Assembly: GCF_005795905.1 (NCBI RefSeq)
Contig: NZ_VAWE01000001.1
Span: 5,073,001 to 5,137,000, forward strand
Direction of reading: 5' to 3'
Length of the DNA stretch: 64,000 nucleotides
Source: Streptomyces marianii
Lineage (GTDB): Bacteria > Actinomycetota > Actinomycetes > Streptomycetales > Streptomycetaceae
Position numbers and translations under genes: made by a program
Shown here: in pieces, positions 10,740 to 50,521 of the stretch
How positions within the stretch are numbered: position 1 is the stretch's first letter
Layout of the letters: each line of letters opens with the position of its first letter
The notes under the pieces: generated by a model
Database searches by the model: none
Told to the model about the DNA's origin: nothing
The model's input: only the letters and a program-made list of their open reading frames with translations

Positions 10740-10821
10740 GCCCGGATGGTGGAATGCAGACACGGCGAGCTTAAACCTCGCTGGCCTTCGGGCCGTGCCG
10801 GTTCAAGTCCGGCTCCGGGCA
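10740..10821 (+). tRNA. bldA: tRNA-Leu(UAA), the bldA developmental tRNA
   Basis: The sequence folds as an 82-base class II tRNA. The acceptor GCCCGGA (10740-10746) pairs with TCCGGGC (10814-10820), and A at 10821 is the discriminator. The anticodon arm has GCGAG pairing with CTCGC around the loop CTTAAAC, giving anticodon TAA. The long variable arm and a normal T-arm with GTTCAAGTC are present. CCA is not encoded. In Streptomyces this is the only tRNA that reads UUA efficiently. It is encoded by bldA and is needed for aerial growth and secondary metabolism because TTA codons are confined to such genes. Confidence 0.97.
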
Positions 10822-10918
10822 CGTTCATGCGTCCACGGCGCGAGCGGCAACCGTTGAACTCTTGAAAGCTTGCTCGCGCCCGCGCGGCCGCCGGCGTTGC
10901 CGGACCGAAGCCGGGCCG

Positions 10919-21548: not shown

Positions 21549-21932
21549 TCAGGGGCGTTCCAGTGCTCCGTTCACGAGTTCGCCGATGCGCGCCCCCGTC
21601 CTGCGGGCCTCGAGATGCAACCGGCCGACGTTGACCCGCGGTTCGGCGGTCACGGTGAGCACGGCGGCCGTGCCCGCCGCGTACGTCGCGACATAGCCGC
21701 TCTCGCCTCGGACGAGCAGTTCACGGAAGCGGCCCTGGCCGGTCGCCTCGGTGAGCCGCACGGCGACGCCGAGTGCCGCGGCGGTCAGCGCGGCGATCGT
21801 CTCCGCCTCCGCGTCCGGTGTGTCCCTGGCCAGCACGAGGCCGTCCACGCTGGCCGCGAGGGCGCCGGTGAGCTGCGGTAACCGGTTCCTCAACCGATGC
21901 AGTTCGTCGAGGACCCCGGTGCTCGCGGTCAT
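21549..21932 (-). CDS. Roadblock/LC7 domain protein with a TTA codon
   Basis: A 127-residue roadblock-type protein (LDELHRLRNRLPQLTGALAASVDGLVLARD, then ETIAALTAAALGVAVRLTEATG and an LxVRGxxGYVATYAAG core), close in layout to the CvnB/MglB proteins that regulate small GTPases. ATG 21932 has AGAGGAG about eight bases upstream. The in-frame ATG at 21974 would overlap the previous gene. Codon 18 is TTA (bases 21881-21879 read on this strand), so translation should depend on the bldA tRNA. It lies 38 bases after the DUF4388-like gene. Confidence 0.8.
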   Translation of the reverse strand: MTASTGVLDELHRLRNRLPQLTGALAASVDGLVLARDTPDAEAETIAALTAAALGVAVRLTEATGQGRFRELLVRGESGYVATYAAGTAAVLTVTAEPRVNVGRLHLEARRTGARIGELVNGALERP

Positions 21933-21970
21933 CAGCTGTCTCCTCTCGGCGCGCTGCCTCATCGCGCGCA

Positions 21971-22732
21971 TCACAGCGTTGCCTCCAGGGCGTCACGGAG
22001 CCGGCGGAGCAGGGCGATGTCCGGATCCGCGGACACCTCCATCACGCGCGCGACATCGAGTGGCGGGTCGGGCGCCATGGCGCTCGGGCGAGGAGTCTCG
22101 ACGAGCCCGGCCGCAGCCAGCCGGCGTACGTCGACGAGGGTGTGGAACGCGGGACGTCCCAGGGCCCGGGCGATGTCGGCGGGGGTGCGCACCCCGTCGG
22201 CCAGGTCGAGGACGGCGCGCTGCCGCGGGGCGGCCCGCACCGGGGCGGGCCGGGGGGAGGGCACCACGGGCGCGGTGTCCGTCTCCGGATGCGCCCAGAG
22301 ACGGTCCAGCAGGGCCCGGCGCCGCAGGGTCTCGCGCTCGACCACTTCGGCTGCCACGGGCCGTACCGGGCCTATCCAGTGGGCCACGCCGTAGCGGAAG
22401 CGGGTGGGGCCGTTGCTCGGTGCGAGGGCGAAGAACGCCGCGTCGAAGAGCGCACCGAGATGGCATATCTCCAGCTCGCCCCCGGACACCAGACCGCTGT
22501 CGACGAGGTACCGGCCCACCGCGCCGTTCGCCCCGGCCTCGCGGAGAGCCTCCGTCCAGCCCTCGGCGCGCAGCCGCCCGGTCGCGGCGAGCAGGACGTC
22601 GATCCCCGGAGCGGTGGGGCTCTCGGCGTGGACGACGCGGCCCTCGACGAGGTAAAGCGTTCCCCGGTCCCGTAAGAGGGCGCCGGTGGCCCGTTCGGAG
22701 GCCAGCCGCAGCAGCATCGGTGAGACGGTCAC
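21971..22732 (-). CDS. DUF4388/PATAN-like protein with a TTA codon
   Basis: A 253-residue cytoplasmic protein. The N-terminal part (residues about 5-105) has the DUF4388-type pattern LASERATGALLRDRGTLYLVEGRVVHAESP and GRYLVDSGLVSGGELE, known from PatA-like response regulators and gliding proteins. The C-terminal 110 residues resemble a winged-helix segment (VLDLADGVRTPADIARALGRPAFHTLVDVRRLAAAGLV). The GTG start at 22732 overlaps the stop of the preceding roadblock gene (GTGA). Codon 20 is TTA (bases 22675-22673), predicting bldA dependence. Confidence 0.75.
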   Translation of the reverse strand: MTVSPMLLRLASERATGALLRDRGTLYLVEGRVVHAESPTAPGIDVLLAATGRLRAEGWTEALREAGANGAVGRYLVDSGLVSGGELEICHLGALFDAAFFALAPSNGPTRFRYGVAHWIGPVRPVAAEVVERETLRRRALLDRLWAHPETDTAPVVPSPRPAPVRAAPRQRAVLDLADGVRTPADIARALGRPAFHTLVDVRRLAAAGLVETPRPSAMAPDPPLDVARVMEVSADPDIALLRRLRDALEATL

Positions 22733-37560: not shown

Positions 37561-37809
37561 GGATCCGGCGGGGCGCGAACGCCGGGGGAAGGCGTGCGCC
37601 AGGAGCCGCGAGTTGTCCGGCGGACGGTTTCGGTGCGCCGGTCCGGGGGCGGGCGACGCCCCGCGATTCGCCCCATTGGCACCGCCTTCCACAGGACTTC
37701 ACACCTCTTCCCGGGTTGGTCACAGCTTGACCCTCACTCCCTGTTGCGGGGCGTTTTCGGCCGGTACCGTCCTGTCCGGGAAAGCTCGAGGGGGAGACCG
37801 GGGGTCGAG

Positions 37810-38901
37810 TTGAGCGGTGTGCGCATTCGTGTCGTCAGGCCCGGGGAGCTGGACGAGGGGGAGGCCGAGTCCTGGCGCGAGCTGCGCGCCAAGACCGGTG
37901 CCCCGGCCAGTCCTTTCATGGAACCGGAGTTCACCCTGGCCGTCGCCGGGGTGCGACCGGCCGCCAGGGTCGCGGTCGTCGAGGACGACGGAGTACCGGC
38001 CGGCTTCTTCCCCTACGAGAAGGGCCCGTTCGGGTACGGCCGGGCCATCGGGTTCGGTGTCTCCGACTGCCAGGGGGCCGTACTGCGGCCAGGACTGGTC
38101 CTCTCCGCGCGCGAGCTGCTGCGGGCCTGCTCGCTCTCCGTGTGGGAGTTCGACAACCTGGAGGCGGGGCAGGGCCTCTTCGAGCCGGGCGGAGCCGAGG
38201 AGTTCGCCTCGCCGGTGATCGACGTGGGCGAGGGGTACGCCGTGTACGAGGAGCGGCTGCGCGAGCAGTCGCCGAAGTTCCTCAGGACCACCACGGCCAA
38301 GGAGCGCAGGCTGGGCCGGCAGGCGGGCGAGGTGCGGTTCGTCTTCGACGAGCGCGACCCCTCGGCGCTGCGCACGCTGATGGCCTGGAAGTCCGCCCAG
38401 TACCGGAGGACCGGCCGCCGGGACCGCTTCGCCCGGGAGTGGATCAGCACGCTCGTGCGGCGGCTCCACGACACGCGGGCGCCGGGCTGCTCGGGCGTGC
38501 TGTCCGTGCTGTACGCGGCGGACCGCCCGGTCGCCGCGCACTTCGGGCTGCGCTCGCGCACGGTGCTGTCCTGCTGGTTCCCGGCCTACGACACCGCGTA
38601 CGCGAAGTACTCGCCGGGGCTGATCCTGCATCTGCGGATGGCCGAGGCCGCGGCGACCGCGGGCATCGGGATGCTCGACCTCGGCCGCGGCGCCGCCGAG
38701 TACAAGGACGCTCTCAAGACCGGTGAACTCCGGGTACGCGAGGGCGCGTCCGTCCGGCCGGGTCCGGCGGCCGCGCTCCACCGGCTGAGCCGCGAGCCGG
38801 GGCGGCGAGCCCACGGCTTCGTCCGCAGCCGGCCCCGTCTCGCCGGGTACGCGCAGCGGACACTCAGCCGGATCGGCCGGCTGAGGGGCAGGGGTGACTG
38901 A
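37810..38901 (+). CDS. GNAT family (CelD/BcsL-like) acetyltransferase
   Basis: A 363-residue protein with the Acetyltransf_6 layout. The N-terminal half has FMEPEFTLAVAGVRPAARVAVVEDDGVPAGFFPYE. The C-terminal GNAT half has KFLRTTTAKERRLGRQAGEVRFVFDERD, LSVLYAADRPVAAHFGLRSRTVLSCWFPAYD and LDLGRGAAEYKDALKTGE. Such enzymes are linked to cellulose and other exopolysaccharide loci. The start is uncertain: TTG 37810 has a G-rich Shine-Dalgarno sequence about five bases away, and GTG 37819 is an alternative. It is the first gene of the surface polysaccharide cluster. Confidence 0.78.
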   Translation: MSGVRIRVVRPGELDEGEAESWRELRAKTGAPASPFMEPEFTLAVAGVRPAARVAVVEDDGVPAGFFPYEKGPFGYGRAIGFGVSDCQGAVLRPGLVLSARELLRACSLSVWEFDNLEAGQGLFEPGGAEEFASPVIDVGEGYAVYEERLREQSPKFLRTTTAKERRLGRQAGEVRFVFDERDPSALRTLMAWKSAQYRRTGRRDRFAREWISTLVRRLHDTRAPGCSGVLSVLYAADRPVAAHFGLRSRTVLSCWFPAYDTAYAKYSPGLILHLRMAEAAATAGIGMLDLGRGAAEYKDALKTGELRVREGASVRPGPAAALHRLSREPGRRAHGFVRSRPRLAGYAQRTLSRIGRLRGRGD

Positions 38902-39377: not shown

Positions 39378-40772
39378 ATGCCGAACGTCCCGCCGCGACC
39401 CCACGCCATGCAGGTCGCCGAGCTCGACCTCGACACCCTCGATCCGCCGTCGTCCGCGGAACCGCACGTGGCCCGGGGCGCCCCCGCCCACGGTGTGATC
39501 GCCCTGCGTCCCGGGCCCGGCGGGGCCCCCGTGGGGCCGGGGGAGGTCTTCGTGCTGGTACGGCGCCGGGGCCGTCCCGTCGGCACCCTCACCGCGACCG
39601 TGCCGGACGGGGCCGACCCGGCGGAGATCCTGGCCGCGGTGGCCCGTGACCGGCTGGCGCCGGGCGTCGCGGGCCGCCCGGCGCGCGAGGCCGTCACCCG
39701 CCGTCGCGCCGCTCCGCACCCTGCCGCGCCCCCGGCTGCCGCCGCTCCGGAAGGGGCCGCGCACCGGGCCGCTCCGCCCCGGACCAGCGTTGTCGTCGCC
39801 ACCCGCGAGCGCCCCGGCCGGCTCGCCCGCGCCCTGGACTCGCTGCTCGCCCAAGACCATCCGGACTTCGAGGTCGTCGTCGTCGACAACGCGCCGCTGA
39901 CCGGCGCCACCCGGGAGCTGATCGAGCGCAAGTACGGTGAGCGGGTGCGCTACGTGCACGAGCCCGTGCCGGGTCTCGCCGTCGCCCACAACCGCGGTGT
40001 CGCCGCCTCCGACGGCACCGTGCTCGCCTTCACCGACGACGACGTCGTCGCCGATCCGCACTGGCTGACCGCGCTCACCGCACCGTTCGCCGAGGACCAC
40101 CGCATCGGCTGCGTCACGGGGCTGATCCTCCCCGCGCGCCTCGGCACACCCGCCCAGATCCTGCTGGAGAGCCACGGCGGCTTCGCCAAGGGCTTCGCTC
40201 CCCGCACGTACGATCCGGCGCGGCCGCCCGCCGACGAGCCGCTGTTCCCCTTCACCGCGGGCCGTTTCGGCTCCGGTGCCAACATGGCCTTCCGCGCCCG
40301 GGTGCTCAGGGCGGCCGGCGGCTTCGACCCCGCGACCGGCACCGGCACCGCGGCCCGCGGTGGCGACGACCTCTACGCGTTCGTGCGGATCCTCGTCGAC
40401 GGCCACCGGCTGCGGTACACGCCCGACGCACTGGTCTGGCACCACCACCGGGAGACCGAGCGCGACCTGCGGAACCAGGCGTTCGGCTACGGCGCCGGCC
40501 TCACCGCCTACCTCACCGCGCTCGTCGCCCGCCGGCCCGGCCTGCTTCCGGCGCTGCTCGCCCGGCTGCCCCGCGGCCTCGCCCACGCCCGGACCACGAC
40601 CGCGCACCGCGACGGCGCCGTCGGCGTGCCCGGGGAGCACGGGGCCGGCGGCCACCCATGGCCGCGCAGCCTCTCCCGGCTGGAGCGGCGCGGGATGCTC
40701 GCCGGGCCCCTCGGATACGTCAGGGCCCGCCGCCGGGTCCGCGGCCTGCCGCTCCCCTGGGAGGAGAGATGA
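39378..40772 (+). CDS. Family 2 glycosyltransferase
   Basis: A 464-residue inverting glycosyltransferase. The GT-A domain begins near residue 135 (TSVVVATRERPGRLARALDSLLAQDHPDFEVVVVDNAP), with the metal/UDP motif FTDDDVVADPHWL and the acceptor-side region GRFGSGANMAFRARVLRAAGGFD, then GGDDLYAFVRILVDGHRLRY. The N-terminal 130 residues are an extra domain rich in Ala and Pro. ATG 39378 has GGGAG about six bases upstream. Its stop overlaps the next ATG. Confidence 0.88.
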   Translation: MPNVPPRPHAMQVAELDLDTLDPPSSAEPHVARGAPAHGVIALRPGPGGAPVGPGEVFVLVRRRGRPVGTLTATVPDGADPAEILAAVARDRLAPGVAGRPAREAVTRRRAAPHPAAPPAAAAPEGAAHRAAPPRTSVVVATRERPGRLARALDSLLAQDHPDFEVVVVDNAPLTGATRELIERKYGERVRYVHEPVPGLAVAHNRGVAASDGTVLAFTDDDVVADPHWLTALTAPFAEDHRIGCVTGLILPARLGTPAQILLESHGGFAKGFAPRTYDPARPPADEPLFPFTAGRFGSGANMAFRARVLRAAGGFDPATGTGTAARGGDDLYAFVRILVDGHRLRYTPDALVWHHHRETERDLRNQAFGYGAGLTAYLTALVARRPGLLPALLARLPRGLAHARTTTAHRDGAVGVPGEHGAGGHPWPRSLSRLERRGMLAGPLGYVRARRRVRGLPLPWEER

Positions 40773-41839
40773 CCTCGTCACGTACACCGCGGGCGCCCCG
40801 CGTGCCGCATGAACCTCGAGTGTCCCAAGGACCCCTAGGCCCGCAAGGTTCGCAAGGCCCGCAAGTACCCCTAGGCCCTCAAGGCCCGCAAGTACCCCTA
40901 GGCCCTCAAGGCCCGCAAGGCCCCCAACGACCTCGTGCCACGCCAGATCCCCGAGAGCGCCCAGAGCGCCCAAAGCCCCGAGAGCCCCAAGAGCCCCCAG
41001 AGCCCCGAGAGCCCCAGGCGGCCCGAGCACGCCAAGAGGGCCGAGCAGCCCGCATTCCCGTCCTGCTCTACCACGCGGTCATGGACGATCCGCCCGACTG
41101 GATCGCCGAGTTCACCGTCACTCCCGCGGAGTTCGCCGCCCAGCTCGACGCCGTCGTCGCCAGTGGCCGCACGCCGATCATGATCAGCGCCCTCTCGGAC
41201 CACCTCGCCGGACGCGGCGCACCCCTGCCGCCCCGGCCCGTCGTCCTCACCTTCGACGACGGCTTCGCCGATCTGCCCGGACCCACCGCCGAGGCCCTCG
41301 CCGACCGCGGACTGCCCGCGACCGCGTATCTCACCACCGGCGCCATCACCCGGGGGCTCCGCAGTCTGCTGCCGCCCGCCCCGATGATGACGCTGGCCCA
41401 GGCTCCGCTGCTGGAGCAGCACGGCATGGAGGTCGGCGGCCACACCGTCACCCATGCGCAGCTCGACACGCTCGGGGCCGGGCGGCTGCGCTACGAACTG
41501 CACCACTCCAAGGCCGTCCTGGAGGACGCGCTCGGCCATGAGGTGCGCCATCTCGCCTACCCGCACGGCTACAACAGCAGGGCCGTGCGCCGGGCCGTCC
41601 GGGCGGCCGGGTACGAGTCCGCCGTCGCCGTACGCCACGCGCTCAGCTCGGAGACCGACGAGGCGTACCGGATCGCCCGGCTCATCCTGCGCCGCGGCCA
41701 CACCGTCGCCGACGTCGAGGCGTGGATGGACGGCACGGGTGCGCGGGCCGCCCCGTACCCGGACTCGCTGTCCACCGTGGGCTGGCGCCTCTACCGACGG
41801 GCGCGGGCGGCCGTGAAGGGCCCGGAGTTCGCGGGCTGA
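40769..41839 (+). CDS. Polysaccharide deacetylase with collagen-like N-terminal linker
   Basis: NodB-type deacetylase of 356 residues, acting on N-acetylated sugars of a surface polymer or peptidoglycan. Catalytic motifs: TFDDGFADLP (D163, D164), the zinc pair H225 and H229 in GGHTVTHAQ, and LAYPHGYNS. The first 95 residues are unusual: eleven triplets of G-P-Q or V-P-L type (residues 21-53), then a Pro/Glu/Arg-rich stretch. There is no signal peptide, so the catalytic part may act inside or be exported another way. The start is set by overlap with the GT2 gene (ATGA). Confidence 0.85.
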   Translation: MTSSRTPRAPRVPHEPRVSQGPLGPQGSQGPQVPLGPQGPQVPLGPQGPQGPQRPRATPDPRERPERPKPREPQEPPEPREPQAARARQEGRAARIPVLLYHAVMDDPPDWIAEFTVTPAEFAAQLDAVVASGRTPIMISALSDHLAGRGAPLPPRPVVLTFDDGFADLPGPTAEALADRGLPATAYLTTGAITRGLRSLLPPAPMMTLAQAPLLEQHGMEVGGHTVTHAQLDTLGAGRLRYELHHSKAVLEDALGHEVRHLAYPHGYNSRAVRRAVRAAGYESAVAVRHALSSETDEAYRIARLILRRGHTVADVEAWMDGTGARAAPYPDSLSTVGWRLYRRARAAVKGPEFAG

Positions 41840-41946: not shown

Positions 41947-43845
41947 GTGCAGCAACGCGTGCCCACACCGGTCACCGGGGGCAGCGCGCTGCCGCCCGTG
42001 GAGCGGACCGAGGACCACCGGCCGTCCACCGGGCCCGGCGCCCCGCCGCGGAGCCGGCCGTCCCTCCCCGACCTCGCCTGGCTCCCGCTGCTCCTCGGCC
42101 TCGGCCTGTGGTCGTACGCGCTGCCGCGCATCGGCTTCCGCACGATGGGGGAGTACGGGCTCCTCGACCGGCTGCCGGCCGTGTTCTTCGCCGCGCTGCT
42201 CGTGCTCACCGGCGGTTTCCTGCTCGCGCTGCGGCGCGCGGGCACCGCGCCCTGGTGGCCGGCCGCGTACTGCGTGGCGATGCTGTTCGCGCTCAAGGCC
42301 CCGCCCGCGGTCCTGTACGACTCGGTGCGCTACCCGTGGGCCTCCAAGCACGACGCCGTCGTCAACACCCTCCTCGCCAACGGTGAACTGCGACCGCACG
42401 CCGCGCTGTCCGGGAACATGTCGGCCTACGACCAGTGGCCCGGCTTCTTCGGCCTCAACGCCGCCCTGGTGCGCGCCTTCGGCGTCGAGAGCGCCGCCGC
42501 CTACCTCAACTGGGCCCCGGTGGTGCTGGGGCTGCTGCTCCTGCCCGTGCTGGTCCTGCTGTACCGGACCTTCACCGAGGACTGGCGGCTGGTGTGGACC
42601 GGAGTCTGGATCTTCCAGCTCGCCAACTGGGTCGGCCAGGACTACCTCGCCCCGCAGGGCTTCGCGTACCTCCTGCATCTGACGGTACTGGCCGTGGTGC
42701 TGCGCCACTTCGTGCTGCCGGGGTCGGCCGGGAGGCTGCGCGACCGTACCTTCCTCGACCCGGCCGCGGCCGCCGTGCCGCCGCCGACCGGCCGGCGGCA
42801 GCGCGCCGTCTGCGTGCTGGTCCTCACGCCCCTGATCGCCGCGATCAACGCCTCGCACCAGCTCACCCCCGTGATGCTGTGCGTCTCGCTGTTCGCCCTG
42901 CTCTTCACCCGCCGCTACCGCAACCACGGACTCCTCGCCGTCGCCGGAGCCCTGATGCTGGCCTGGGACCTGACGATGGGGCGGCCGCTGTTCACCGAGA
43001 CGCTCGGCACCCTGCGCGAGTCGCTGGGCGAACTGACCCGCAACTCCCGTGCGGGGTACGCCGGACAGCTCACCGGACCGGGACCCGAGCTCGCCGGCCG
43101 GGCCAACGTCCTGATGGTGCTCGCGGTCGCCGTGCTCGCGGCGGTCGCCGTGCTCACGCGCCGCAGGCTGACCCGGAGCGCCCTGCCGCTGCTGCTGGTG
43201 TCGGCGGCGCCGCTCCCGCTGTTCGCCGTCAACGACTACGGCGGCGAAATGCTGTTCCGCGTCTATCTGTTCGGGCTGCCCGGCGCCGCGTTCTTCGCCG
43301 CCGCGGCCCTCGTTCCGGCCGCCGGCGCGCCCCGGGACGCCTCGGCGCGCGCCAGAACCGTCCACCGGCGCGTGGCCCACGTCGCGCTGCCCGTGTCGCT
43401 GGTGGCGCTCACCGCCGGATTCCTGCCGTCGTACTACGGCAAGGAGAGGATGAACTACACCCCACCCGCCGAGACGGCACTGGTCACCAGGGCCATCGAC
43501 CGGGCACCCGAAGGGAGCCTCGTCCTCGCCGCCACCGGGTCCTTCCCGATGGCGCTGCACCGCTACGACCGGCTGGAGCACTGGTTCTTCGCCGAGCAGG
43601 AGCTCCCCGCCAACGAGCGGATGCTCGCCGACCCGGCCCGCCATCTGGCCGACGGCATCCCCCCGGGGACGCGGGCGTACGTCGTCCTCACCCGTACCCA
43701 GGACATCTACACCGCGGGCGAGGGGCTGCTGCCTCCCGGCGGCTTCGCGACGCTGCGCGGCGAGCTGGCCGCGTCCCCGCTCTTCACCGTCGTCGAGGAA
43801 CACCCCTACGGCGTCGTACTCGAATACCGATCACCAGCGAGGTGA
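41947..43845 (+). CDS. Polytopic membrane protein, probable glycopolymer enzyme
   Basis: A 632-residue integral membrane protein with about 10-12 hydrophobic helices (for example LAWLPLLLGLGLWSYAL, AVFFAALLVLTGGFLLAL, WAPVVLGLLLLPVLVLLY, VLMVLAVAVLAAVAVL) and a 140-residue extracytoplasmic C-terminal domain. The loop with SGNMSAYDQWPGFFGLNAAL after the early helices and the overall topology resemble GT-C glycosyltransferases or polymerases. This is not proven. The GTG start has GGGGGGAG seven bases upstream. Confidence 0.7.
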   Translation: MQQRVPTPVTGGSALPPVERTEDHRPSTGPGAPPRSRPSLPDLAWLPLLLGLGLWSYALPRIGFRTMGEYGLLDRLPAVFFAALLVLTGGFLLALRRAGTAPWWPAAYCVAMLFALKAPPAVLYDSVRYPWASKHDAVVNTLLANGELRPHAALSGNMSAYDQWPGFFGLNAALVRAFGVESAAAYLNWAPVVLGLLLLPVLVLLYRTFTEDWRLVWTGVWIFQLANWVGQDYLAPQGFAYLLHLTVLAVVLRHFVLPGSAGRLRDRTFLDPAAAAVPPPTGRRQRAVCVLVLTPLIAAINASHQLTPVMLCVSLFALLFTRRYRNHGLLAVAGALMLAWDLTMGRPLFTETLGTLRESLGELTRNSRAGYAGQLTGPGPELAGRANVLMVLAVAVLAAVAVLTRRRLTRSALPLLLVSAAPLPLFAVNDYGGEMLFRVYLFGLPGAAFFAAAALVPAAGAPRDASARARTVHRRVAHVALPVSLVALTAGFLPSYYGKERMNYTPPAETALVTRAIDRAPEGSLVLAATGSFPMALHRYDRLEHWFFAEQELPANERMLADPARHLADGIPPGTRAYVVLTRTQDIYTAGEGLLPPGGFATLRGELAASPLFTVVEEHPYGVVLEYRSPAR

Positions 43846-43851
43846 GTCCCG

Positions 43852-44358
43852 ATGCCGAAAGAGATCCCGCTCAGAGCCGCCGTGGCACTGTCCGGCTGGG
43901 TGGCGCTCGCGGCGACCCTGCTGCCCGGGGGCTCACCGGCGAGATGGGTGCCGGTGCTCCTGTTCGTCTGCTTCGGCCCCGGCCTCGCGCTGCTGCACCC
44001 GCAGCCGGAGGGCCTGCGGCCCGGCGCCAGGCTGGAGGCGTTCGCGCTGGCCGCGCCGATCAGCCTCTCGATCGGCGTGCTCACCGCCACCTCGCTGTTC
44101 CTGGTGCGGGGATTCACGGTGACGGCGTTCCTGCTGCCCCTCGCCGCCTTCGCGACGGTCGTCGCCGCACTGCCGGGACTCCCGCTCCCCGCGGCCACGC
44201 GCGGAGCGGCCGGACGTGCGCGTGAGTTCTCCCGTGGGGCGCCTCCCGCAACCCCGGCCGGGGAGACGGTCCCGCGATCGGGGAGCGACGCCGCGGCCGA
44301 CGGCGGGAGCGGCGGCACGGCCGGACGTGCTCAACACGACGACGGCGGTGGCCGATGA
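43852..44358 (+). CDS. Small membrane protein of the polysaccharide cluster
   Basis: A 168-residue protein with about four hydrophobic segments in the first 110 residues (VALSGWVALAATLLPGG, VPVLLFVCFGPGLALL, AFALAAPISLSIGVLTA, FLLPLAAFATVVAALPG) and a disordered Gly/Ala-rich tail. It starts six bases after the upstream stop and overlaps the next gene by ATGA. No family is recognised; the context suggests a helper of polymer synthesis. Confidence 0.65.
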   Translation: MPKEIPLRAAVALSGWVALAATLLPGGSPARWVPVLLFVCFGPGLALLHPQPEGLRPGARLEAFALAAPISLSIGVLTATSLFLVRGFTVTAFLLPLAAFATVVAALPGLPLPAATRGAAGRAREFSRGAPPATPAGETVPRSGSDAAADGGSGGTAGRAQHDDGGGR

Positions 44359-45464
44359 GCGGACGGTATTCGGGACCCCGCCGGCGCGCGGGGGCGGCGG
44401 TCGTCCTCGCCACCGTCGCCGCCTTCCTCGCCGGGATCGGGATCTGGGCCACCGCCGACGACGGCACCGCGGACGAGGACTTACCGGAGAACGCCGTGTC
44501 CGGCGAGCCCCCGGGCGGGCCCTGTGCCCCCGACGCCGTACTCGCTCCGCGCTGCGGCGCCTGGTGGGGCGCGTACATCCCCTACGACGAGAACGGCTCG
44601 CTCACCGCACCGGTGTACGCCTTCGAGAAGAAGATCGGGCGGCGGCTCGACCTCGTGTACACGTACCACGACATGTCGGGGAACGAGCTCGACGGCCGGC
44701 TGCTCACCCCCGACGAGCAGGAACTGGGCCGCGACCGGCTGCTCATGCTCGCCTGGGAGTCCACGGTGTGGAAGGAACCGCACCACGCAGGCTGGACCGA
44801 GACCCAGCTCGGCTGGAGGAACATCGCGTCGGGACGGTACGACACCGAGATCGTCGACCCGCAGATCCGCCGCATCAAGGCGTACGGGAAGCGGGTCTTC
44901 CTCTCCTTCGACCAGGAGGTCGACGCCCGGATCAAGGAGGGCGCCGGGACTCCGGAGGAGTACGTCGCCGCCTACCGGCACCTGCGGGACCGCTTCGAGA
45001 AGCTCGGCGCGCGCAATGTGGTGTGGGTGTGGACGGTCTCCGGCTACCTCGGCAGCGCCGACCTGATGAAGCGGCTCTACCCCGGGGACGAGTACGTCGA
45101 CTGGCTCGCGATGGACCAGTACAACTACTACACCTGCCACAAGACCACGGACTGGAAGGACTTCGAACGCAGCCAGCGCCCCAGCCACGACTGGCTGGTC
45201 GCGAACATCTCGGACGAGAAGCCGCTGATGCTCGCCGAGTTCGCGACCGTCCCCGATCCGGCCGATCCCGACCGGCAGCGCGCCTGGTACGCCGCCGTCC
45301 CGCAGGTCGCCAGGACGATGCCCAGGGTGAAGGCGATGGTCCACTGGAACCGCGCGGTGCCGGGCGAGGGCTGCGATCTGACGGTCAACGGCGGACCGGG
45401 CCTGGAGGGCTACCGGCTCGCCGGCCGGGACGCCTGGTTCAGACAGCCGGTCCCGAGCCGCTGA
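44355..45464 (+). CDS. GH26-like glycoside hydrolase with a TTA codon
   Basis: A 369-residue protein with an N-terminal membrane helix or signal (AAVVLATVAAFLAGIGIW), so it is extracytoplasmic. The catalytic barrel begins at GAWWGAYIPY. E188 in LSFDQEVD and E295 in LAEFAT are the likely acid/base and nucleophile in GH26 fashion. WVWTVSGYLGSADLMKRLYPGDEYVDWLAMDQYNYY is typical of this clan. It probably trims or edits the polymer made by this cluster. Codon 43 is TTA (44481-44483), making translation bldA-dependent. Its 3' end overlaps the convergent flippase gene by 26 bases. Confidence 0.8.
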   Translation: MSGRYSGPRRRAGAAVVLATVAAFLAGIGIWATADDGTADEDLPENAVSGEPPGGPCAPDAVLAPRCGAWWGAYIPYDENGSLTAPVYAFEKKIGRRLDLVYTYHDMSGNELDGRLLTPDEQELGRDRLLMLAWESTVWKEPHHAGWTETQLGWRNIASGRYDTEIVDPQIRRIKAYGKRVFLSFDQEVDARIKEGAGTPEEYVAAYRHLRDRFEKLGARNVVWVWTVSGYLGSADLMKRLYPGDEYVDWLAMDQYNYYTCHKTTDWKDFERSQRPSHDWLVANISDEKPLMLAEFATVPDPADPDRQRAWYAAVPQVARTMPRVKAMVHWNRAVPGEGCDLTVNGGPGLEGYRLAGRDAWFRQPVPSR

Positions 45465-47622
45465 CGGACTTCCGCCGGGCGGCGCCGCGGTCCGCCCGGC
45501 GGTGGGCGAGCGCAGCGACCGCCGCCGCGAGGAAACCGGCCGACACCGGCAGCGCCGTGGCGGCGAAGGCGTCCTGGGCGGCCCACCCCGTCACCGCCAG
45601 GACCCACACCGTGCCCGCCGTGATCCGCCCGGGCACGCCCAGGGCCCACAGGGCGGTGGCGGCCAGCCCCAGGCACAGCAGCTGGAGCACGGGCGGCAGG
45701 ACGGTGAGCACGTCCGCCCCGCCGACGGCCCGGGCCGGCAGTACGTCCGCCAGGGCTTCGTGCCCGGGGCCCGTGGCGGGAGCGGGCCGTACGCCCAGCA
45801 GCGCGGGGGCGGTGTGCAGCGCGGCGGCGGTGGTGAGCAGCGCGGCCGTGAGCAGGACCGGCCGGATCCGGCCCAGCGCCACGGCCCCGCTGTACACGAC
45901 CACCAGCAGCACCCCGGCCGTCACCGTCAGCGGTGGCAGGGCGTGCAGCAGTTCCCGGCCCGACAGCGGTCCGGGCGGGACGTCCCGCGCCCCGGCCAGC
46001 GGGAACCAGAACAGTCCGGCGGCCACGCCCAGCAGCAGCCACAGCCAGGCGGCCGTGCCGGACTCCTCGCGCCCCGCGGACGCCGGAGGCTCCGGCGGCG
46101 GGTACACGGATATCCCGAACGCCGGGGTCGCCGCCTCGTGCACACCCCGCAGATACACGGTCTCCCGGGTCCGGTCCGGGTCCCGCCCGGCCGCCGCGGA
46201 GGCCCGCCGCTCGGCCGCCCGACGCGCCCAGGCCGTGCCGTAGTCGTCGGCGGCGGGGCGCCGGCGCGGCGCGAACGGCCGTTTCCCGCGCGGCGGACGG
46301 GGCTCGCGGCCGGCGAGCGCCGCCCGGACGCCCGGAGCGGAGACCAGCGCCATGAGCGACATGGAGAGCAGCATCGCCAGGCCGGCGCCGGAGATCCCGG
46401 CCGGGCCCGTCAGCACCGCCGCGCTGCCCAGCACCATCGCGCACATCGCGCCCTGGAGCGCCGCGAGCACGCCCGTACGGCCCTGGACGCGCAGGACGCC
46501 GATGTACAGCTCCACGACGACGCGGGGCAGCGCGGCGGCGGCCAGCAGCCGTAGCACGGTCGTGCCGTGCTCGGCGTAGTCGGTGCCGAACGGGGCGAGG
46601 ATCAGCGGGGCGAACACGACGAGGACGGCGACGACCGGGACGAGCAGTAGCGCCATCCGGCGCAGTGCGCCGCGCACCCCCTCGGCGAGGCCCCCGGGGC
46701 TGTGCGAGGCGTGTGCCGTCAGCGACGAGGCCATGTTGATGGCCATGAACTCCATCGTGCCGCCGACGGTGTAGGCGATGTAGAAGAAGCCGTTGTGGGC
46801 GGCGTCGAAGCGGACGGCGACCATCACCGGCAGCAGGTTGATCATCGCCAGGGAGAACAGGGCGCCGACGGAGTCCCCGGCGAGGAAACGGCCGACGTCC
46901 CGCATCCGCGGCGGTTCGCGGTCGCGGTCCGCGACGGACTGACGGGGTATCAGTCGGCGGAACACCAGCCAGCCGAGGGGGAGTACGGACAGGGCGATCG
47001 CCGCCGCCCACGACACGAAGACCCCGAGGGCGGGTACGGCGCCCGCGAAGACGATGAGCAGCAGCAGCTTGCCGATGGAGAACACGGCGTTGCCGACCGG
47101 CACCCAGACCGCCTTGCGCAGCCCGGTCAGCACCCCGTCCTGCAGGGTGAGCAGCGCCCAGGCGACACAGGCCGCGGTGAAGACCGCTCCGGCGACGGGG
47201 CCGTGCAGCGGTGCGTACGAAGGACCCCACAGGTCGAGGGTGACCAGGAACGCCGCACAGGCGACGCACACGACGGCCGAGCTGACCGCGTACGCCCGCC
47301 ACACCAGCGGGCCGGTGGCCCGTCCGGCCCTCGGGACGTACCGCACCACCGCGCCGATCATCGTCGTCGCGGTGACCGAGGCGAGCAGCCGCATCGCGGC
47401 GATGGCGGCCGATCCCTGCCCCACGGCCTCCTCGGTGTAGTACCGGGCGGCCACCAGCCAGAAGCCCAGCCCGAGCGCGGCGGAGACCCCGGTGGAGAGC
47501 ATCAGCGCATAGGCGTTGCGGAACATGGAGTCGCCGCCGGCGGATCCGCCGGCCGCCCCTTCGGCGGGCGCCCCTCCGCCGGTGGCGGTGCCGGGCCGCC
47601 GCACCCGGGTCGTCTCAGCCAC
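45439..47622 (-). CDS. Wzx-like polysaccharide flippase with extra C-terminal membrane domain
   Basis: A 727-residue membrane protein. The first 430 residues follow the MOP/Wzx flippase plan (FRNAYALMLSTGVSAALGLGFWLVAARYYTEEAVGQGSAAIAAMRLLA, FLAGDSVGALFSLAMINLLPVMVAVRFDAAHNGFFYIAYTVGG) with about 12 helices. A charged linker (440-500) leads to a second hydrophobic region of about six helices of unknown role. The GTG at 47622 lies eight bases inside the aminotransferase gene. It probably moves lipid-linked oligosaccharides across the membrane. Confidence 0.8.
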   Translation of the reverse strand: MAETTRVRRPGTATGGGAPAEGAAGGSAGGDSMFRNAYALMLSTGVSAALGLGFWLVAARYYTEEAVGQGSAAIAAMRLLASVTATTMIGAVVRYVPRAGRATGPLVWRAYAVSSAVVCVACAAFLVTLDLWGPSYAPLHGPVAGAVFTAACVAWALLTLQDGVLTGLRKAVWVPVGNAVFSIGKLLLLIVFAGAVPALGVFVSWAAAIALSVLPLGWLVFRRLIPRQSVADRDREPPRMRDVGRFLAGDSVGALFSLAMINLLPVMVAVRFDAAHNGFFYIAYTVGGTMEFMAINMASSLTAHASHSPGGLAEGVRGALRRMALLLVPVVAVLVVFAPLILAPFGTDYAEHGTTVLRLLAAAALPRVVVELYIGVLRVQGRTGVLAALQGAMCAMVLGSAAVLTGPAGISGAGLAMLLSMSLMALVSAPGVRAALAGREPRPPRGKRPFAPRRRPAADDYGTAWARRAAERRASAAAGRDPDRTRETVYLRGVHEAATPAFGISVYPPPEPPASAGREESGTAAWLWLLLGVAAGLFWFPLAGARDVPPGPLSGRELLHALPPLTVTAGVLLVVVYSGAVALGRIRPVLLTAALLTTAAALHTAPALLGVRPAPATGPGHEALADVLPARAVGGADVLTVLPPVLQLLCLGLAATALWALGVPGRITAGTVWVLAVTGWAAQDAFAATALPVSAGFLAAAVAALAHRRADRGAARRKSVSGSGPAV

Positions 47623-48829
47623 CGGTTCCGCCCTCGGTTCCGCCCGGGGGGCCGCCGCCGGAGCCCGGGGCCGGTGGGGCGCCCGCCGGCCGCACCCCCG
47701 CCGCCTCCAGTACGGCGATGATCCGCTCCGCCCCGCGCGGATCGGCCGGGAGGGCGTGGCGGGCGAACCAGCGGGCCGGTTCCGGGTCGGGCGAGGGATC
47801 GGTGAAGAGCTCGGAGGCGTAGTCGTCGAGCGGCGGGTCGTACAGGTAGCCGGTGGTGATGCGGCGCCGGTCCAGCGCGGCGATGGCCGCGTCCCGGTCG
47901 GCGACCAGGAGCGGGACGCGGAAGAGCGGCTGCACCGGGCCGGGTCCGGGCGCGCCCCAGGGGCTTGCCAGCAGCAGCCGGGTGCCCTCGAGATGGGCCG
48001 CGAGACGGTCGTCGAGGCGGTCGAGCAGCCGCGCGGTGCGGCGGAGCCGGGCGCGTCCGGGGCTGATCCGGTAGTCGTGCATGTCGACCCGCACCCAGGA
48101 GTGGAACGGCGGGAGCGCGGGCGCCTGCGCGACCGCCCGCTCCAGCTCGCCCGGCCGCAGCGGCATCCGTATCGCCTCGCGCTCCTCCATGCCGAGAAGC
48201 CGCATCACGGCCCGCGCCGCGCGGACGAGGCGCAGCCCCCGCACGCCCGCCTCCGCGTACGGCCGTAACGCGTGGACGAGTTCGGCGGAGAACCGGGAGG
48301 GCGTGAGGAGGGCGTCGCGGGCCTCCCGGAGGGTGTCCCGCAGGGCCGGGTCGGCGAACGTGAGGAAGCCCCCGGTCTTGGCGGCGGTGTGCTTGGAGAG
48401 GCTGAACACGGACGCGTCGCCGTAGGAGCCGACCGGCCGGCCGCCGGCCACCGACCCGATCGCGTGCGCCGCGTCCTCCAGCAGCGGGACGCCCAGGGCG
48501 TCGCAGCGGGCGCGCAGCGCGGGCGCGGGGTCGGGGTTGCCGTAGAGGTTGGTCGTGACGACCGCGTCCAGGCTCCGCCAGGTGGCCTCGGGGACCGCGG
48601 ACACGTCGATCGAGCCGTCCCTCGGGTCCAGCGGCGCCTGGACCGGACGCAGGCCCGCCGCCAGCACCACGAAGAGGATGACGTCGTCGTTGACCGGCGA
48701 CATCAGTACCCGTCCGCCGGGCCCGCACCAGTGGCGGAGCGCCACGTACAGCCCGAGCCGGCACGACGGCACGTACAGGCACTCCCTGCCGAGGCGGTCG
48801 CGCATCCGCGCTTCCAGTGCCTCCCCCAC
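47615..48829 (-). CDS. DegT/DnrJ/EryC1/StrS aminotransferase-like enzyme with a TTA codon
   Basis: A 404-residue PLP enzyme of the sugar aminotransferase family. LLEDAAHAIGS (PLP-stacking Asp), FSLSKHTAAKTGGF (Schiff-base Lys) and ITTGYLYDPPL are the signatures. It should make an amino sugar for the polymer. TTG 48862 is not usable as start because it falls in the likely -10 element. GTG 48829 with AGGGGGG upstream is chosen. Codon 188 is TTA (48268-48266 read on this strand), predicting bldA dependence. It is co-transcribed with the flippase. Confidence 0.82.
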   Translation of the reverse strand: MGEALEARMRDRLGRECLYVPSCRLGLYVALRHWCGPGGRVLMSPVNDDVILFVVLAAGLRPVQAPLDPRDGSIDVSAVPEATWRSLDAVVTTNLYGNPDPAPALRARCDALGVPLLEDAAHAIGSVAGGRPVGSYGDASVFSLSKHTAAKTGGFLTFADPALRDTLREARDALLTPSRFSAELVHALRPYAEAGVRGLRLVRAARAVMRLLGMEEREAIRMPLRPGELERAVAQAPALPPFHSWVRVDMHDYRISPGRARLRRTARLLDRLDDRLAAHLEGTRLLLASPWGAPGPGPVQPLFRVPLLVADRDAAIAALDRRRITTGYLYDPPLDDYASELFTDPSPDPEPARWFARHALPADPRGAERIIAVLEAAGVRPAGAPPAPGSGGGPPGGTEGGTGG

Positions 48830-48860
48830 GGCCTCACCATCCCCCCTGAAACCCCGGCTC

Positions 48861-48890
48861 AATGTGGCCCATACCGGACCCCACCGTCAA
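48861..48890 (-). promoter_or_regulatory. Probable promoter of the aminotransferase-flippase pair
   Basis: Reading leftward, TTGACG (48890-48885) and CACATT (48866-48861) are 18 bases apart. The predicted start point near 48854 falls between the two candidate translation starts and supports GTG 48829. Confidence 0.5.
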
Positions 48891-48896
48891 TAAGGC

Positions 48897-48937
48897 GGAA
48901 GGGCCCATCCCTTGACGGAATGGACCCTTCGGACGGG
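48897..48937 (-). terminator. Hairpin after the sigma factor gene
   Basis: GGAAGGGCCCAT pairs with ATGGACCCTTC, apart from a G-T pair, about 20 bases beyond the sigma factor stop in its direction of transcription. Confidence 0.6.
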
Positions 48938-48954
48938 GCTCTGCGGGCGGGAGG

Positions 48955-49914
48955 TCACTCCTCGATCGTGAGGCCCTTTCTGAGCCTGTTCAGCGTGCGG
49001 GACAGCAGGCGCGACACGTGCATCTGCGAGATGCCGAGTTCGTCGCCGATCTCGGACTGGGTCATGCCCGCGACGAAGCGGAGGGAAAGGATCTTGCGGT
49101 CGCGCGGCGGCAGCGAGGCGATGAGCGGCTTCAGGGACTCGATGTACTCGATCCCCTCGAGGCCGTGGTCCTCGTAGCCGATGCGGTCGGCCAGCGTGCC
49201 CTCGGTCTCGTCCTCGTCGGGCTGCGCGTCCAGGGAGCTCGCGGTGTAGGCGTTGCTCGCGGCCATGCCCTCGACGACCTCGTCCCGCGTGATGCCGAGG
49301 CGATCGGCGAGCTCGCCGATGGTGGGGGCGCGGTCGAGCTGCTGGGCGAGTTCGTCGCCGGCCTTCGCGAGGTCCAGCCGCAGCTCCTGCAGCCGGCGCG
49401 GGACGCGCACGGACCAGGAGGTGTCGCGGAAGAAGCGCTTGATCTCGCCGATGATGGTCGGCATCGCGAACGTGGGGAACTCCACGCCCCGGCTGAGTTC
49501 GAAGCGGTCGATCGCCTTGATCAGGCCGATCGTGCCCACCTGGATGATGTCCTCCATCGGCTCGCTGCGGGAGCGGAACCGGGAGGCGGCGAACTTGACC
49601 AGCGCGAGGTTGAGTTCGACGAGGGTGTTACGCACGTAGGAGTACTCGTGCGTGCCCTCCTCGAGGGTTTCGAGCCGGGCGAAGAGCGTCTTCGACAGAG
49701 CGCGCGCGTCCACGGGGCCGACCTCGCTGAACGGCGGGAGTGCCGGGAGGTCGAGGTCCTCGGACTGCTCGGTGTGCCCGTACTGCTCGTACGGGGGGTG
49801 CTCGTCGTACGCGTCGAGCGCGTGGCGCCCGGAGTGCTCGGGGGACTCGAGGTGATCGTGCTTGTGTGTCGACGGCGCGTACGGGGTACGCGTTTCGTCG
49901 AGCCGGGGTGACAT
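48955..49914 (-). CDS. SigB/SigF-type alternative sigma factor
   Basis: A 319-residue stress sigma factor of the SigB/F/G group. After a 75-residue acidic, His-rich N-terminus come region 2 (VRNTLVELNLALVKFAASRF, EDIIQVGTIGLIKAIDRFELSRGVEFPTFAMPTIIGEIKRFFRDTSW), region 3 and region 4 (LPPRDRKILSLRFVAGMTQSEIGDELGISQMHVSRLLSRTLNRLR). Context (next to hut genes, divergent from STAS and RsbW-like genes) matches my memory of S. coelicolor sigI. ATG 49914 has GGAGGAG just upstream. Activity is probably controlled by partner switching with the divergent genes. Confidence 0.9.
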   Translation of the reverse strand: MSPRLDETRTPYAPSTHKHDHLESPEHSGRHALDAYDEHPPYEQYGHTEQSEDLDLPALPPFSEVGPVDARALSKTLFARLETLEEGTHEYSYVRNTLVELNLALVKFAASRFRSRSEPMEDIIQVGTIGLIKAIDRFELSRGVEFPTFAMPTIIGEIKRFFRDTSWSVRVPRRLQELRLDLAKAGDELAQQLDRAPTIGELADRLGITRDEVVEGMAASNAYTASSLDAQPDEDETEGTLADRIGYEDHGLEGIEYIESLKPLIASLPPRDRKILSLRFVAGMTQSEIGDELGISQMHVSRLLSRTLNRLRKGLTIEE

Positions 49915-50014
49915 GGTCTCCTCCATCGTTCTCGGCATATGGCTGCCGATGCCCATACGCGGTGCTGCGGTGTGCGGCGCCTCCAAAGCCGGCCGTGTCG
50001 GTGGTGTCTCTCTA

Positions 50015-50044
50015 GCCCTACCCGGTCCTTGCCGGACGTTGCAA
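50015..50044 (-). promoter_or_regulatory. Candidate promoter of the sigma factor gene
   Basis: Reading leftward, TTGCAA (50044-50039) and TAGGGC (50020-50015) are 18 bases apart and about 100 bases before the start codon. Confidence 0.35.
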
Positions 50045-50152
50045 GTGTCGAAAGTCATGTATGTCCGATTTATGGGGGAGTTCGGCTACCGATCGGCGTA
50101 CGAAAGGCGTAGTGTTCTGCGGACGTCAACGTCATCGGCGAAGAGGACGGGC

Positions 50153-50521
50153 ATGGACCGCGGGACGGTCGGTAGTGCGAATCGAGGCCGCCTTCGGGTC
50201 GAGGTAAGGACCGAAGGCCCGAGCGAAGTGGTGACTCCGGCGGGTGAGCTCGATCACCACACCGCCGAATTGTTGCGTGCGCCACTCGAGGACGCGCTCG
50301 ACCAAGGTCGTGCACGCCTGGTGGTCGACTGCTCACACCTCGAGTTCTGCGACTCCACGGGACTCAACGTGCTCCTCGGTGCCCGTCTCAGGGCCGAGGC
50401 CGCCGGGGGAGGGGTCCATCTGGCCGGGATGCTTCCCGTCGTGGCCCGGGTCTTCGAGATCACCGGTGCGGAGGCGGTCTTCTCCCTCCACGACTCGGTC
50501 GAAGCGGCCCTGTCGGAGTGA
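50153..50521 (+). CDS. STAS-domain anti-sigma factor antagonist
   Basis: A 122-residue SpoIIAA/RsbV-like protein. SEVVTPAGELDHHTAELLRAPLEDAL and LVVDCSHLEFCDSTGLNVLLGARLRAEAAGG contain the STAS fold and the phosphorylatable Ser in the DSTG motif. When unphosphorylated it would bind the RsbW-like kinase and free the sigma factor. ATG 50153 has AGAGGA about seven bases before it. The gene is divergent from the sigma factor gene, with a 238-base gap. Confidence 0.9.
   Translation: MDRGTVGSANRGRLRVEVRTEGPSEVVTPAGELDHHTAELLRAPLEDALDQGRARLVVDCSHLEFCDSTGLNVLLGARLRAEAAGGGVHLAGMLPVVARVFEITGAEAVFSLHDSVEAALSE

Follow-up and report, generated by a model that had tools for sequence, protein, structure and literature searches.

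Gene content and layout of the locus

The window is a stretch of 64,000 nucleotides from Streptomyces marianii. By its predicted products, the locus is a polysaccharide cluster of eight genes, which encode a family 2 glycosyltransferase (GT2), a GT-C-like transferase (mem), a Wzx-like flippase (wzx), a deacetylase, an acyltransferase (femAB-like), a sugar aminotransferase (DegT), a GH26 hydrolase and a small membrane-like protein (mem2). An earlier reading of the letters (the sequence-only reading) had assigned one TTA codon to each of two convergent units. This layout is seen: two units face each other, the left one on the plus strand and the right one on the minus strand, and they share 26 bp where the 3' ends of their last genes meet (Table 1).

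Table 1. Features of the cluster and of the window. Positions are those of the window.
Feature	Positions	Strand	Evidence
tRNA-Leu (anticodon TAA), bldA, reads UUA	10740..10822	+	ARAGORN
FemAB/BioF2-like acyltransferase (Acetyltransf_6)	37594..38901	+	PF13480, E 8.2e-43
Family 2 glycosyltransferase (GT2)	39378..40772	+	PF00535, E 2.6e-23
Polysaccharide deacetylase	40769..41839	+	PF01522, E 1.8e-20
mem: large helical protein, probably in the membrane; mixed domain at the C-terminus; fold like GT-C glycosyltransferases	41959..43845	+	Predicted structure
mem2: small protein, membrane-like by eye, overlapping GH26 start (ATGA)	43852..44358	+	ORF
GH26-like glycoside hydrolase, N-terminal anchor helix, last gene of left unit	44355..45464	+	PF02156, E 1.1e-6
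TTA, codon 43 of GH26-like hydrolase	44481..44483	+	Sequence, in frame
wzx: Wzx-like flippase, start overlapping DegT stop (GTGGCTGA)	45439..47622	-	PF01943, E 2e-4, below curated cut-off
DegT/DnrJ/EryC1/StrS-like sugar aminotransferase, leads right unit	47615..48829	-	PF01041, E 4.8e-24
TTA (TAA on plus strand), codon 188 of DegT-like aminotransferase	48266..48268	-	Sequence, in frame
14-pair hairpin, interval between sigma-factor gene and DegT	48885..48935	-	MFE -26.7 kcal/mol, z -4.4

The GH26 and DegT labels of the sequence-only reading hold, on the Pfam matches of Table 1. Profile, fold and two putative catalytic glutamates place the hydrolase in GH26, its activity being predicted. Its PDB profile match is Endoglucanase H (E 3.9e-22) and the fold match of its predicted structure is lichenase CtLic26 (2vi0). 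E188 and E295, which we take to be the catalytic pair from GH26 motifs, are invariant in 25/25 aligned sequences. The aminotransferase is assigned to the DegT/DnrJ/EryC1/StrS family by its profile (best stretch: residues 15-183 of 415), and its PDB matches are sugar aminotransferases. A loose lysine motif, a candidate for the PLP lysine site, is found in 56/72 orthologues. Plasmid records matching DegT number 296, all below 60% identity (best: 53%).

The top NCBIfam match of GT2 is MftF, far below the MftF cut-off. The true start of the femAB-like gene is perhaps near 37800: many orthologue alignments begin at about residue 70, and the crude gene caller starts it at 37819. The start codon of mem is uncertain, 41959 being the choice of the same caller. 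The profile scan gave no Pfam or NCBIfam family for mem; its model (pLDDT 73) matches AftA, ArnT and STT3/PglB by fold (E 5e-6 to 8e-4, TM 0.34-0.48). No Pfam family was found for mem2, whose -4 overlap with GH26 is kept in 50/72 loci. An overlap of 4 or 8 bases between DegT and wzx is kept in 64/72. A Wzx/Wzy-dependent polysaccharide pathway comprises a flippase, a polymerase and, as a rule, Wzz and a priming transferase. Among ten proteins scanned against Pfam and NCBIfam, none matched Wzy or Wzz, the Wzx-like match being alone and below cut-off. Scans of 44000-50200 for sigma-70-type promoters and U-tailed terminators returned nothing. The hairpin of Table 1, absent from the terminator output, is a possible boundary of the right unit.

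TTA codons of the window and their conservation

Both TTA codons named by the sequence-only reading are in frame: one in the GH26 ORF (ATG start), the other in DegT, where the number depends on the start (codon 188 from GTG 48829, codon 199 from TTG 48862). Both are TTA-C. Alignment and structure model put the GH26 codon in a linker that joins the membrane anchor at the N-terminus to the catalytic domain; in the model, residues 10-33 form a helix and 29-51 are of low confidence. No further in-frame TTA is found in the eight cluster ORFs, the sigma-factor ORF or the ORFs at 49862 and 50681. Four of the 55 genes called in the window by the crude caller carry TTA: GH26, DegT and an adjacent pair at 21549-22717.

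In thirty 20-kb pieces taken at fixed positions of the own genome, TTA is found in 11/495 called genes (0.079 per 1000 codons), with no sign of an effect of chromosome-arm position (4/166 arm genes vs 7/329 core genes). The chance of at least one TTA per arm is P 0.015 at this rate or 0.026 at that of related genomes (0.106 per 1000); for at least two in the whole cluster, it is 0.033 or 0.056. The two-arm pattern is mildly unusual against chance, selection of the finding not being allowed for.

Conservation was analysed in a set of 125 loci, 22 of which were removed as duplicates. Of the 83 version-A loci, 11 were dropped for absent genes, leaving 72 complete clusters. Another GH26 locus of the own genome (L001) and the window's own locus (L002) were omitted. 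The genomes are 57 of 70 bearing GH26; the remainder are the own genome, a further four whose contigs were small, and eight from a group at about 50% identity. Absence of the codons from orthologues had been named as an outcome that would refute control by bldA, and at codon level this is largely what was found: the aligned column is TTA in 3/72 complete version-A clusters at the GH26 site (33 gaps) and in 9/72 at the DegT site (2 gaps). Same-codon conservation, a supporting and not strictly required feature of UUA-gated genes, is seen at neither site. The TTA codon of adpA is an example of one conserved in orthologues. The clade to which the window belongs comprises seven loci: two carry TTA in both arms (the window and S. 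wuyuanensis L065), two in the right arm only (L092, L094) and three in neither (L004, L003, L096).

In other loci the DegT column reads GTA (21/72), one base from TTA, or GCA (8/72). Its context, xxA-CGN, favours A-ended codons in general: GTA makes up 18.3% of GTN codons before CGN vs 2.6% elsewhere, and TTA 0.5% of leucine codons vs 0.04%, a genome-wide bias. Recurrence at this site may have a neutral cause, namely a GTA precursor in this context. A C follows 63 of the 72 cluster TTA codons and 20 of the 26 background ones, vs 30% for leucine codons of any kind.

TTA excess in the cluster family

TTA is found in 33/72 complete version-A clusters and absent from 39/72. Outside a TTA-poor clade, 33/47 clusters carry it vs about 31% expected. 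TTA makes up 72 of the 162,278 codons of these 47, vs 14 of 132,067 in 24 regions sampled from related genomes, a rate 4.2 times as high (P 2.6e-8 with a near-identical denominator), against a background of just 14 TTAs in genes unmatched for accessory status. The background gene caller is crude; it was trained on cluster orthologues, TTA being given a neutral weight. TTA shows the largest excess of 20 codons compared, most of which are at or below background (ATA 0.9, TTG 1.0, TTT 0.6, ATT 0.65). AGA is raised too (2.3 times), and CTA is at 1.03 times without the deacetylase gene and 1.9 times with it, its exclusion having been chosen after its conserved CTA column was seen; the excess is therefore not purely that of TTA. 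It is found in both contexts (odds 4.1 before CGN, 3.5 elsewhere; related and own background pooled). When each alignment column is counted once, the TTA:CTA ratio is 33:46 with the deacetylase left out vs 14:43 in the background (P 0.045), and 35:62 with it (P 0.16). Many TTA occurrences in the clusters share ancestry. By frequency (33/72; 4.2 times in 47), the family is a frequent-TTA cluster, on thresholds and genomes other than those of PMC4255298 Table 2.

DegT bears TTA in 22/74 loci, and its rate, 0.788 per 1000, is the highest in the cluster: 23 in 29,183 codons vs 4 in 55,105 for the overlapping wzx. In the left arm, TTA is borne by mem in 18/82, by the femAB-like gene in 12/76 and by mem2 in 7/82. 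The neighbours hutI (0/45) and the sigma-factor gene (0/53) have none. The total lack of TTA in the 25-locus clade (0/82,653 codons) was not retained as a sign of lost control: the background of its genomes is low (5/145,250) and the P of zero is 0.058.

Both arms carry TTA in 17/72 complete version-A clusters. Simulation on the tree supports co-occurrence (P 0.0037 for 72 loci; 0.029 for 47, the TTA-poor clade being out). The sister-pair test is not significant (median P 0.375), its pairs being too few for 0.05. The raw Fisher value (P 2.4e-5) is not taken at face value: it is driven by the 25-locus TTA-poor clade, without which P is 0.041. Among 17 complete version-B clusters, six carry TTA, with no association of the arms (P 0.51).

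Candidate bldA control, alternatives and known systems

Both prerequisites for UUA gating, in-frame TTA and a tRNA-Leu(UAA) gene, are present; the tRNA pattern search gave one match in the own genome. Control of the cluster by bldA is plausible. As claimed by the sequence-only reading, from both sides, it is borne out in part: the family excess, the two-arm clusters and the presence of bldA speak for it, whereas the mostly unconserved sites, the mixed state of the own clade and the reach of the left TTA speak against it.

In the preferred reading, polymer synthesis probably waits for tRNA-Leu(UAA), and the DegT UUA could lock export. This reading is tentative (probability about 0.45), a value lowered for the AGA excess and the weaker column-level test. 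The UUA of DegT, at the head of the right unit, would slow translation of that gene or halt it, and the stall would extend to the flippase via the overlapping start; one codon could thus lock polymer export. Because GH26 is the last gene of its unit, its UUA would lock the hydrolase alone and not the left unit. The two codons, the gene overlaps, the family's TTA excess and bldA in the genome are observed; stalling, coupling, timing and the keeping of TTA by selection rather than drift are what we infer. An improbable extension is a translational lock of free position, in which selection maintains one UUA or another in each of the two units while individual codons come and go quickly in evolution; one tRNA would then release biosynthesis and export together with polymer trimming. 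AdpA-like sites (consensus TGGCSNGWWY, one mismatch) are at chance level, 170 in the window vs 167 expected, and were set aside for that reason.

Neutral tolerance, in which TTA comes and goes without regulatory meaning in an accessory, perhaps weakly expressed cluster, is quite possible, at somewhat under even odds. It accounts for the turnover of sites and for recurrence in DegT, one or two base changes from GTA or GCA before CGG where A-ended codons are favoured. The AGA excess and the non-significant TTA:CTA ratio with the deacetylase kept agree with it, as does the low conservation of most TTA codons across the genus (PMC10327506, from an excerpt). It fits less well with a 4.2-fold TTA excess where most codons are at or below background, and with the persistence of this excess inside each codon context.

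In a variant of the preferred reading, selection might act on the right arm only, on TTA in DegT and hence on the flippase, left-arm TTAs being incidental and the two-arm pattern due to shared ancestry. The top TTA rate of DegT, its place at the head of an overlapping two-gene unit and the sister-pair result favour this rather doubtful reading; the TTA-rich mem, femAB-like gene and mem2 of the left arm and the tree simulation argue against it. A second variant, also somewhat unlikely, is leaky control, in which UUA-C may be misread without bldA and both codons tune expression rather than switch it. The C that follows both window codons and most cluster TTAs suits it, and in ccaR work a C following UUA reportedly matters for misreading. 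Weak translation of adpA without bldA points the same way; MoeE5, with two UUA codons, is undetected (lost) without bldA, so misreading is not general (PMC3814723, excerpt).

Known systems offer partial likenesses, two of which, SCO0381-0401 and moeE5, serve as precedents for the preferred reading. The deoxysugar/glycosyltransferase cluster SCO0381-0401 of S. coelicolor is also a sugar cluster whose TTA codons lie in structural rather than regulatory genes (PMC2000904; PMC4255298 Table 2). Its proteins are reduced in a bldA mutant, downstream products being missing in apparent polarity past TTA (PMC2000904), whereas the window cluster is known from sequence alone. Likened by description, it is possibly a single 21-gene operon, in contrast to the two convergent units here. 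The moenomycin genes moeO5 and moeE5 likewise carry UUA in structural biosynthetic genes with no cluster regulator; unlike the present cluster, this antibiotic pathway has direct bldA and AdpA evidence (PMC3814723, excerpt). As here, TTA recurs per cluster while gene and site vary in clusters such as amf/SapB; by description, the window cluster was not recognised among the entries of the same table (PMC4255298 Table 2).

Much of the work on bldA concerns regulators, adpA among them. With its TTA excess and wandering sites, this structural polysaccharide cluster offers a good natural test of selected switch versus drift, close relatives with TTA in both arms, one or none being at hand, and one TTA missing from orthologues does not alone refute bldA control of a pathway. 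The sequence-only reading had also raised a possible function in aerial hyphae or spores. By description, the exopolysaccharide clusters of Actinoplanes missouriensis share genes with the window cluster: GT2, Wzx-like and GH26 in wps-1; deacetylase, DegT, BioF2-like acyltransferase and Wzx-like in wps-3. Both have predicted Wzy and Wzz, whereas here such a match is lacking and mem has a GT-C-like fold. The main text of PMC13390465 makes no mention of bldA or TTA codons. wps-1 is needed for normal sporangia and wps-3 is not required (PMC13390465), so that the analogy, as far as it applies, cuts both ways.

TTA codons of the window

According to the sequence-only reading, each arm of the polysaccharide cluster carries one TTA codon, in the GH26-like gene (left arm, plus strand) and in the DegT-like gene (right arm, minus strand). 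Both were confirmed, in frame, and the eight cluster ORFs contain no other in-frame TTA. The gene of the tRNA that reads UUA, bldA, is the single tRNA gene found by ARAGORN in the whole window; some 33.5 kb separate it from GH26. Two neighbouring further TTA genes are listed as a pair, which we take to be possibly a conservon.

Features of the window, with strand
Feature	Position	Strand	Remarks
bldA tRNA-Leu(UAA)	10740-10822	+	ARAGORN
Two neighbouring further TTA genes	21549-22717	-	First: Roadblock/LC7 protein, TTA codon 31; second: without Pfam family, TTA codon 15
GH26-like gene	44355-45464	+	TTA in frame at codon 43
GH26/wzx convergence	45439-45464		26 bp tail-to-tail overlap
DegT-like gene	47615-48829	-	GTG start; TTA in frame at codon 188
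Hairpin, sigma-factor gene/DegT gap	48885-48935	-	14 pairs; z -4.4; without reported T run

Background rates are 0.079 TTA per 1000 codons in the own genome (11/495 called genes; thirty 20-kb samples at fixed positions) and 0.106 per 1000 in related genomes (14/411 called genes; 24 samples, genomes outside a TTA-poor clade). The probability of a TTA in each arm is 0.015 at the former rate and 0.026 at the latter; the window's two codons are by themselves weak evidence. According to PMC10327506, Streptomyces genomes have 51-505 TTA ORFs (mean 177), and positional conservation of the codons is low.

TTA in orthologous clusters

The locus set without duplicates includes 83 loci of the window-type arrangement (version A) and 20 loci in which the module of GH26 and large membrane protein is inverted (version B). 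TTA-bearing genes of version A are DegT (22/74), large membrane protein (18/82), femAB-like (12/76), GH26 (8/83), GT2 (7/80), small protein (7/82), wzx (4/77) and deacetylase (2/80); the flanking hutI (0/45) and sigma-factor (0/53) genes have none. TTA is found in 6/17 complete version-B clusters.

Neither window codon is conserved. TTA at GH26 codon 43 is shared with S. wuyuanensis (L065) and locus L009, the nearest relative (L092) having CTG there. TTA at DegT codon 188 appears at three places on the tree (window, L092, L065, L094; L009; L008, L010, L041, L067), and the clusters of L004, L003 and L096, of the window's clade, lack TTA. Codons at the DegT site are GTA (21 loci), CTG (10), GCC (10), TTA (9), GCA (8) and GTC (6); the most frequent state, GTA, is a single step away from TTA.

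The absence of TTA from a 25-locus clade is uninformative, because its genomes are TTA-poor (P 0.058). The 47 other loci have 72 TTA in 162,278 codons versus 14 in 132,067 for the background, i.e. 4.2 times (P 2.6e-8), the highest ratio among 20 codons compared. In these loci CTA is at 1.03 times background if the deacetylase gene, with its conserved CTA column, is left out, and at 1.9 times if it is kept; AGA is at 2.3 times; ATA, TTG, TTT, ATT and most other codons are at or below 1. Counting every alignment column once, to lessen shared ancestry, gives TTA:CTA of 33:46 versus 14:43 (P 0.045), or 35:62 (P 0.16) with the deacetylase gene. The TTA excess is strong when raw and modest once corrected for ancestry. 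AGA peaks in the small-protein gene (49 in 6,899 codons, 47 loci). In deacetylase orthologues CTA is unusually frequent; in alignment column 545 it accounts for 23/24 leucines.

In the own and related samples, TTA accounts for 13/2616 leucine codons before CGN and 13/29,743 elsewhere; GTA, CTA and, to a lesser degree, GCA are likewise enriched, TTA, GTA and CTA being several times commoner there. The next base is C after 63/72 cluster TTAs (47 loci) and after 20/26 background ones. Against the pooled background, the cluster excess has odds of 4.1 before CGN and 3.5 elsewhere. This context effect may already be known: TTA codon context is reportedly the subject of Silov et al. 2021.

The 72 complete version-A clusters have TTA in both arms (17), left only (9), right only (7) or neither (39). 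Co-occurrence gives Fisher P 2.4e-5 (72 clusters) and 0.041 (47); simulations in which the arms evolve independently along a FastTree tree give 0.0037 and 0.029. Sister-pair tests have too few pairs to decide: about 4 are concordant and 1 is discordant, with a median P of 0.375. A link between the arms is suggested.

Distribution, architectures and predicted products

Scanning species genomes at the protein level yielded 67 loci, two with non-Streptomyces titles (one Microtetraspora glauca, one Actinobacteria bacterium). The GH26 gene is present in 70/392 sampled genomes of the genus; matches outside it, in a class-wide sample of 296 genomes, are 31-43% identical. In 28 of the 70, GH26 identity is 39-54%. 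Loci were retrieved for 20 of these: in most, the large membrane protein (~40% identical) and GH26 genes share the DegT/wzx strand, the other genes being mostly 60-80% identical. The two architectures differ in the transferase-hydrolase module, which is exchanged and inverted. Set against window 41959-45464, loci L129-L147 (version B) have these two genes diverged and on the opposite strand, the rest being well conserved.

Pfam matches are acyltransferase, GT2, polysaccharide deacetylase, GH26 and DegT aminotransferase; a Wzx-type match scores under threshold. The large and small proteins have no family match in Pfam or NCBIfam. The predicted model of the former (pLDDT 73) matches AftA, ArnT and oligosaccharyltransferases with TM scores of up to 0.48 and E of 5e-6 to 8e-4, a resemblance to GT-C transferases that is suggestive only. 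Both profile (E 3.9e-22) and fold place the GH26 protein closest to lichenase CtLic26/Endoglucanase H; it has an N-terminal helix, and two glutamates are kept in 25/25 aligned sequences. The flanks are hutI and a SigB/F/G-type sigma-factor gene (both above NCBIfam cut-off); within the DNA retrieved, 40/72 complete version-A clusters have both and 22/72 neither.

Regulatory readings

In 64/72 loci DegT shares 4 or 8 bases with wzx, and TTA is concentrated in DegT (23 versus 4 in the longer wzx); from this we infer that a UUA pause in DegT could silence the flippase as well. The GH26 gene ends its unit (4-base overlap with the small gene in 50/72 loci), so the effect of its UUA would be confined to the hydrolase. 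DegT is set apart from the sigma-factor gene by a strong hairpin. GH26 and wzx overlap in 29/72 loci. The SCO0381-0401 cluster (PMC2000904) and moeE5 (PMC3814723) offer precedents for UUA gating.

Control by bldA, proposed from sequence alone as acting from both sides, is plausible for the cluster, but the codons are not conserved and the arms would be gated unequally. The role in aerial hyphae or spores suggested in the same reading is hypothetical. The best explanation, with a probability of roughly 0.45, is that polymer synthesis is held back until tRNA-Leu(UAA) is available. That selection keeps a UUA in each facing unit, the codon position being free to wander, is unlikely. Neutral tolerance, under which TTA comes and goes in the cluster without regulatory meaning, is a serious contender at somewhat short of even odds; the raised AGA frequency and the comparison by alignment columns weigh in its favour and against both bldA readings.

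A limited-depth literature search on bldA and polysaccharide, and on the cluster's parts combined, gave no paper on the cluster. PMC4255298 tabulates clusters carrying TTA in varying genes; the present one was not recognised in that list. Actinoplanes EPS clusters have similar parts (PMC13390465): to its authors' knowledge, no Wzx/Wzy cluster that includes a GH26 enzyme had been characterised; wps-3, with deacetylase, DegT and BioF2-like genes, is dispensable for normal sporangia, and wps-1, with GH26, is required for them.
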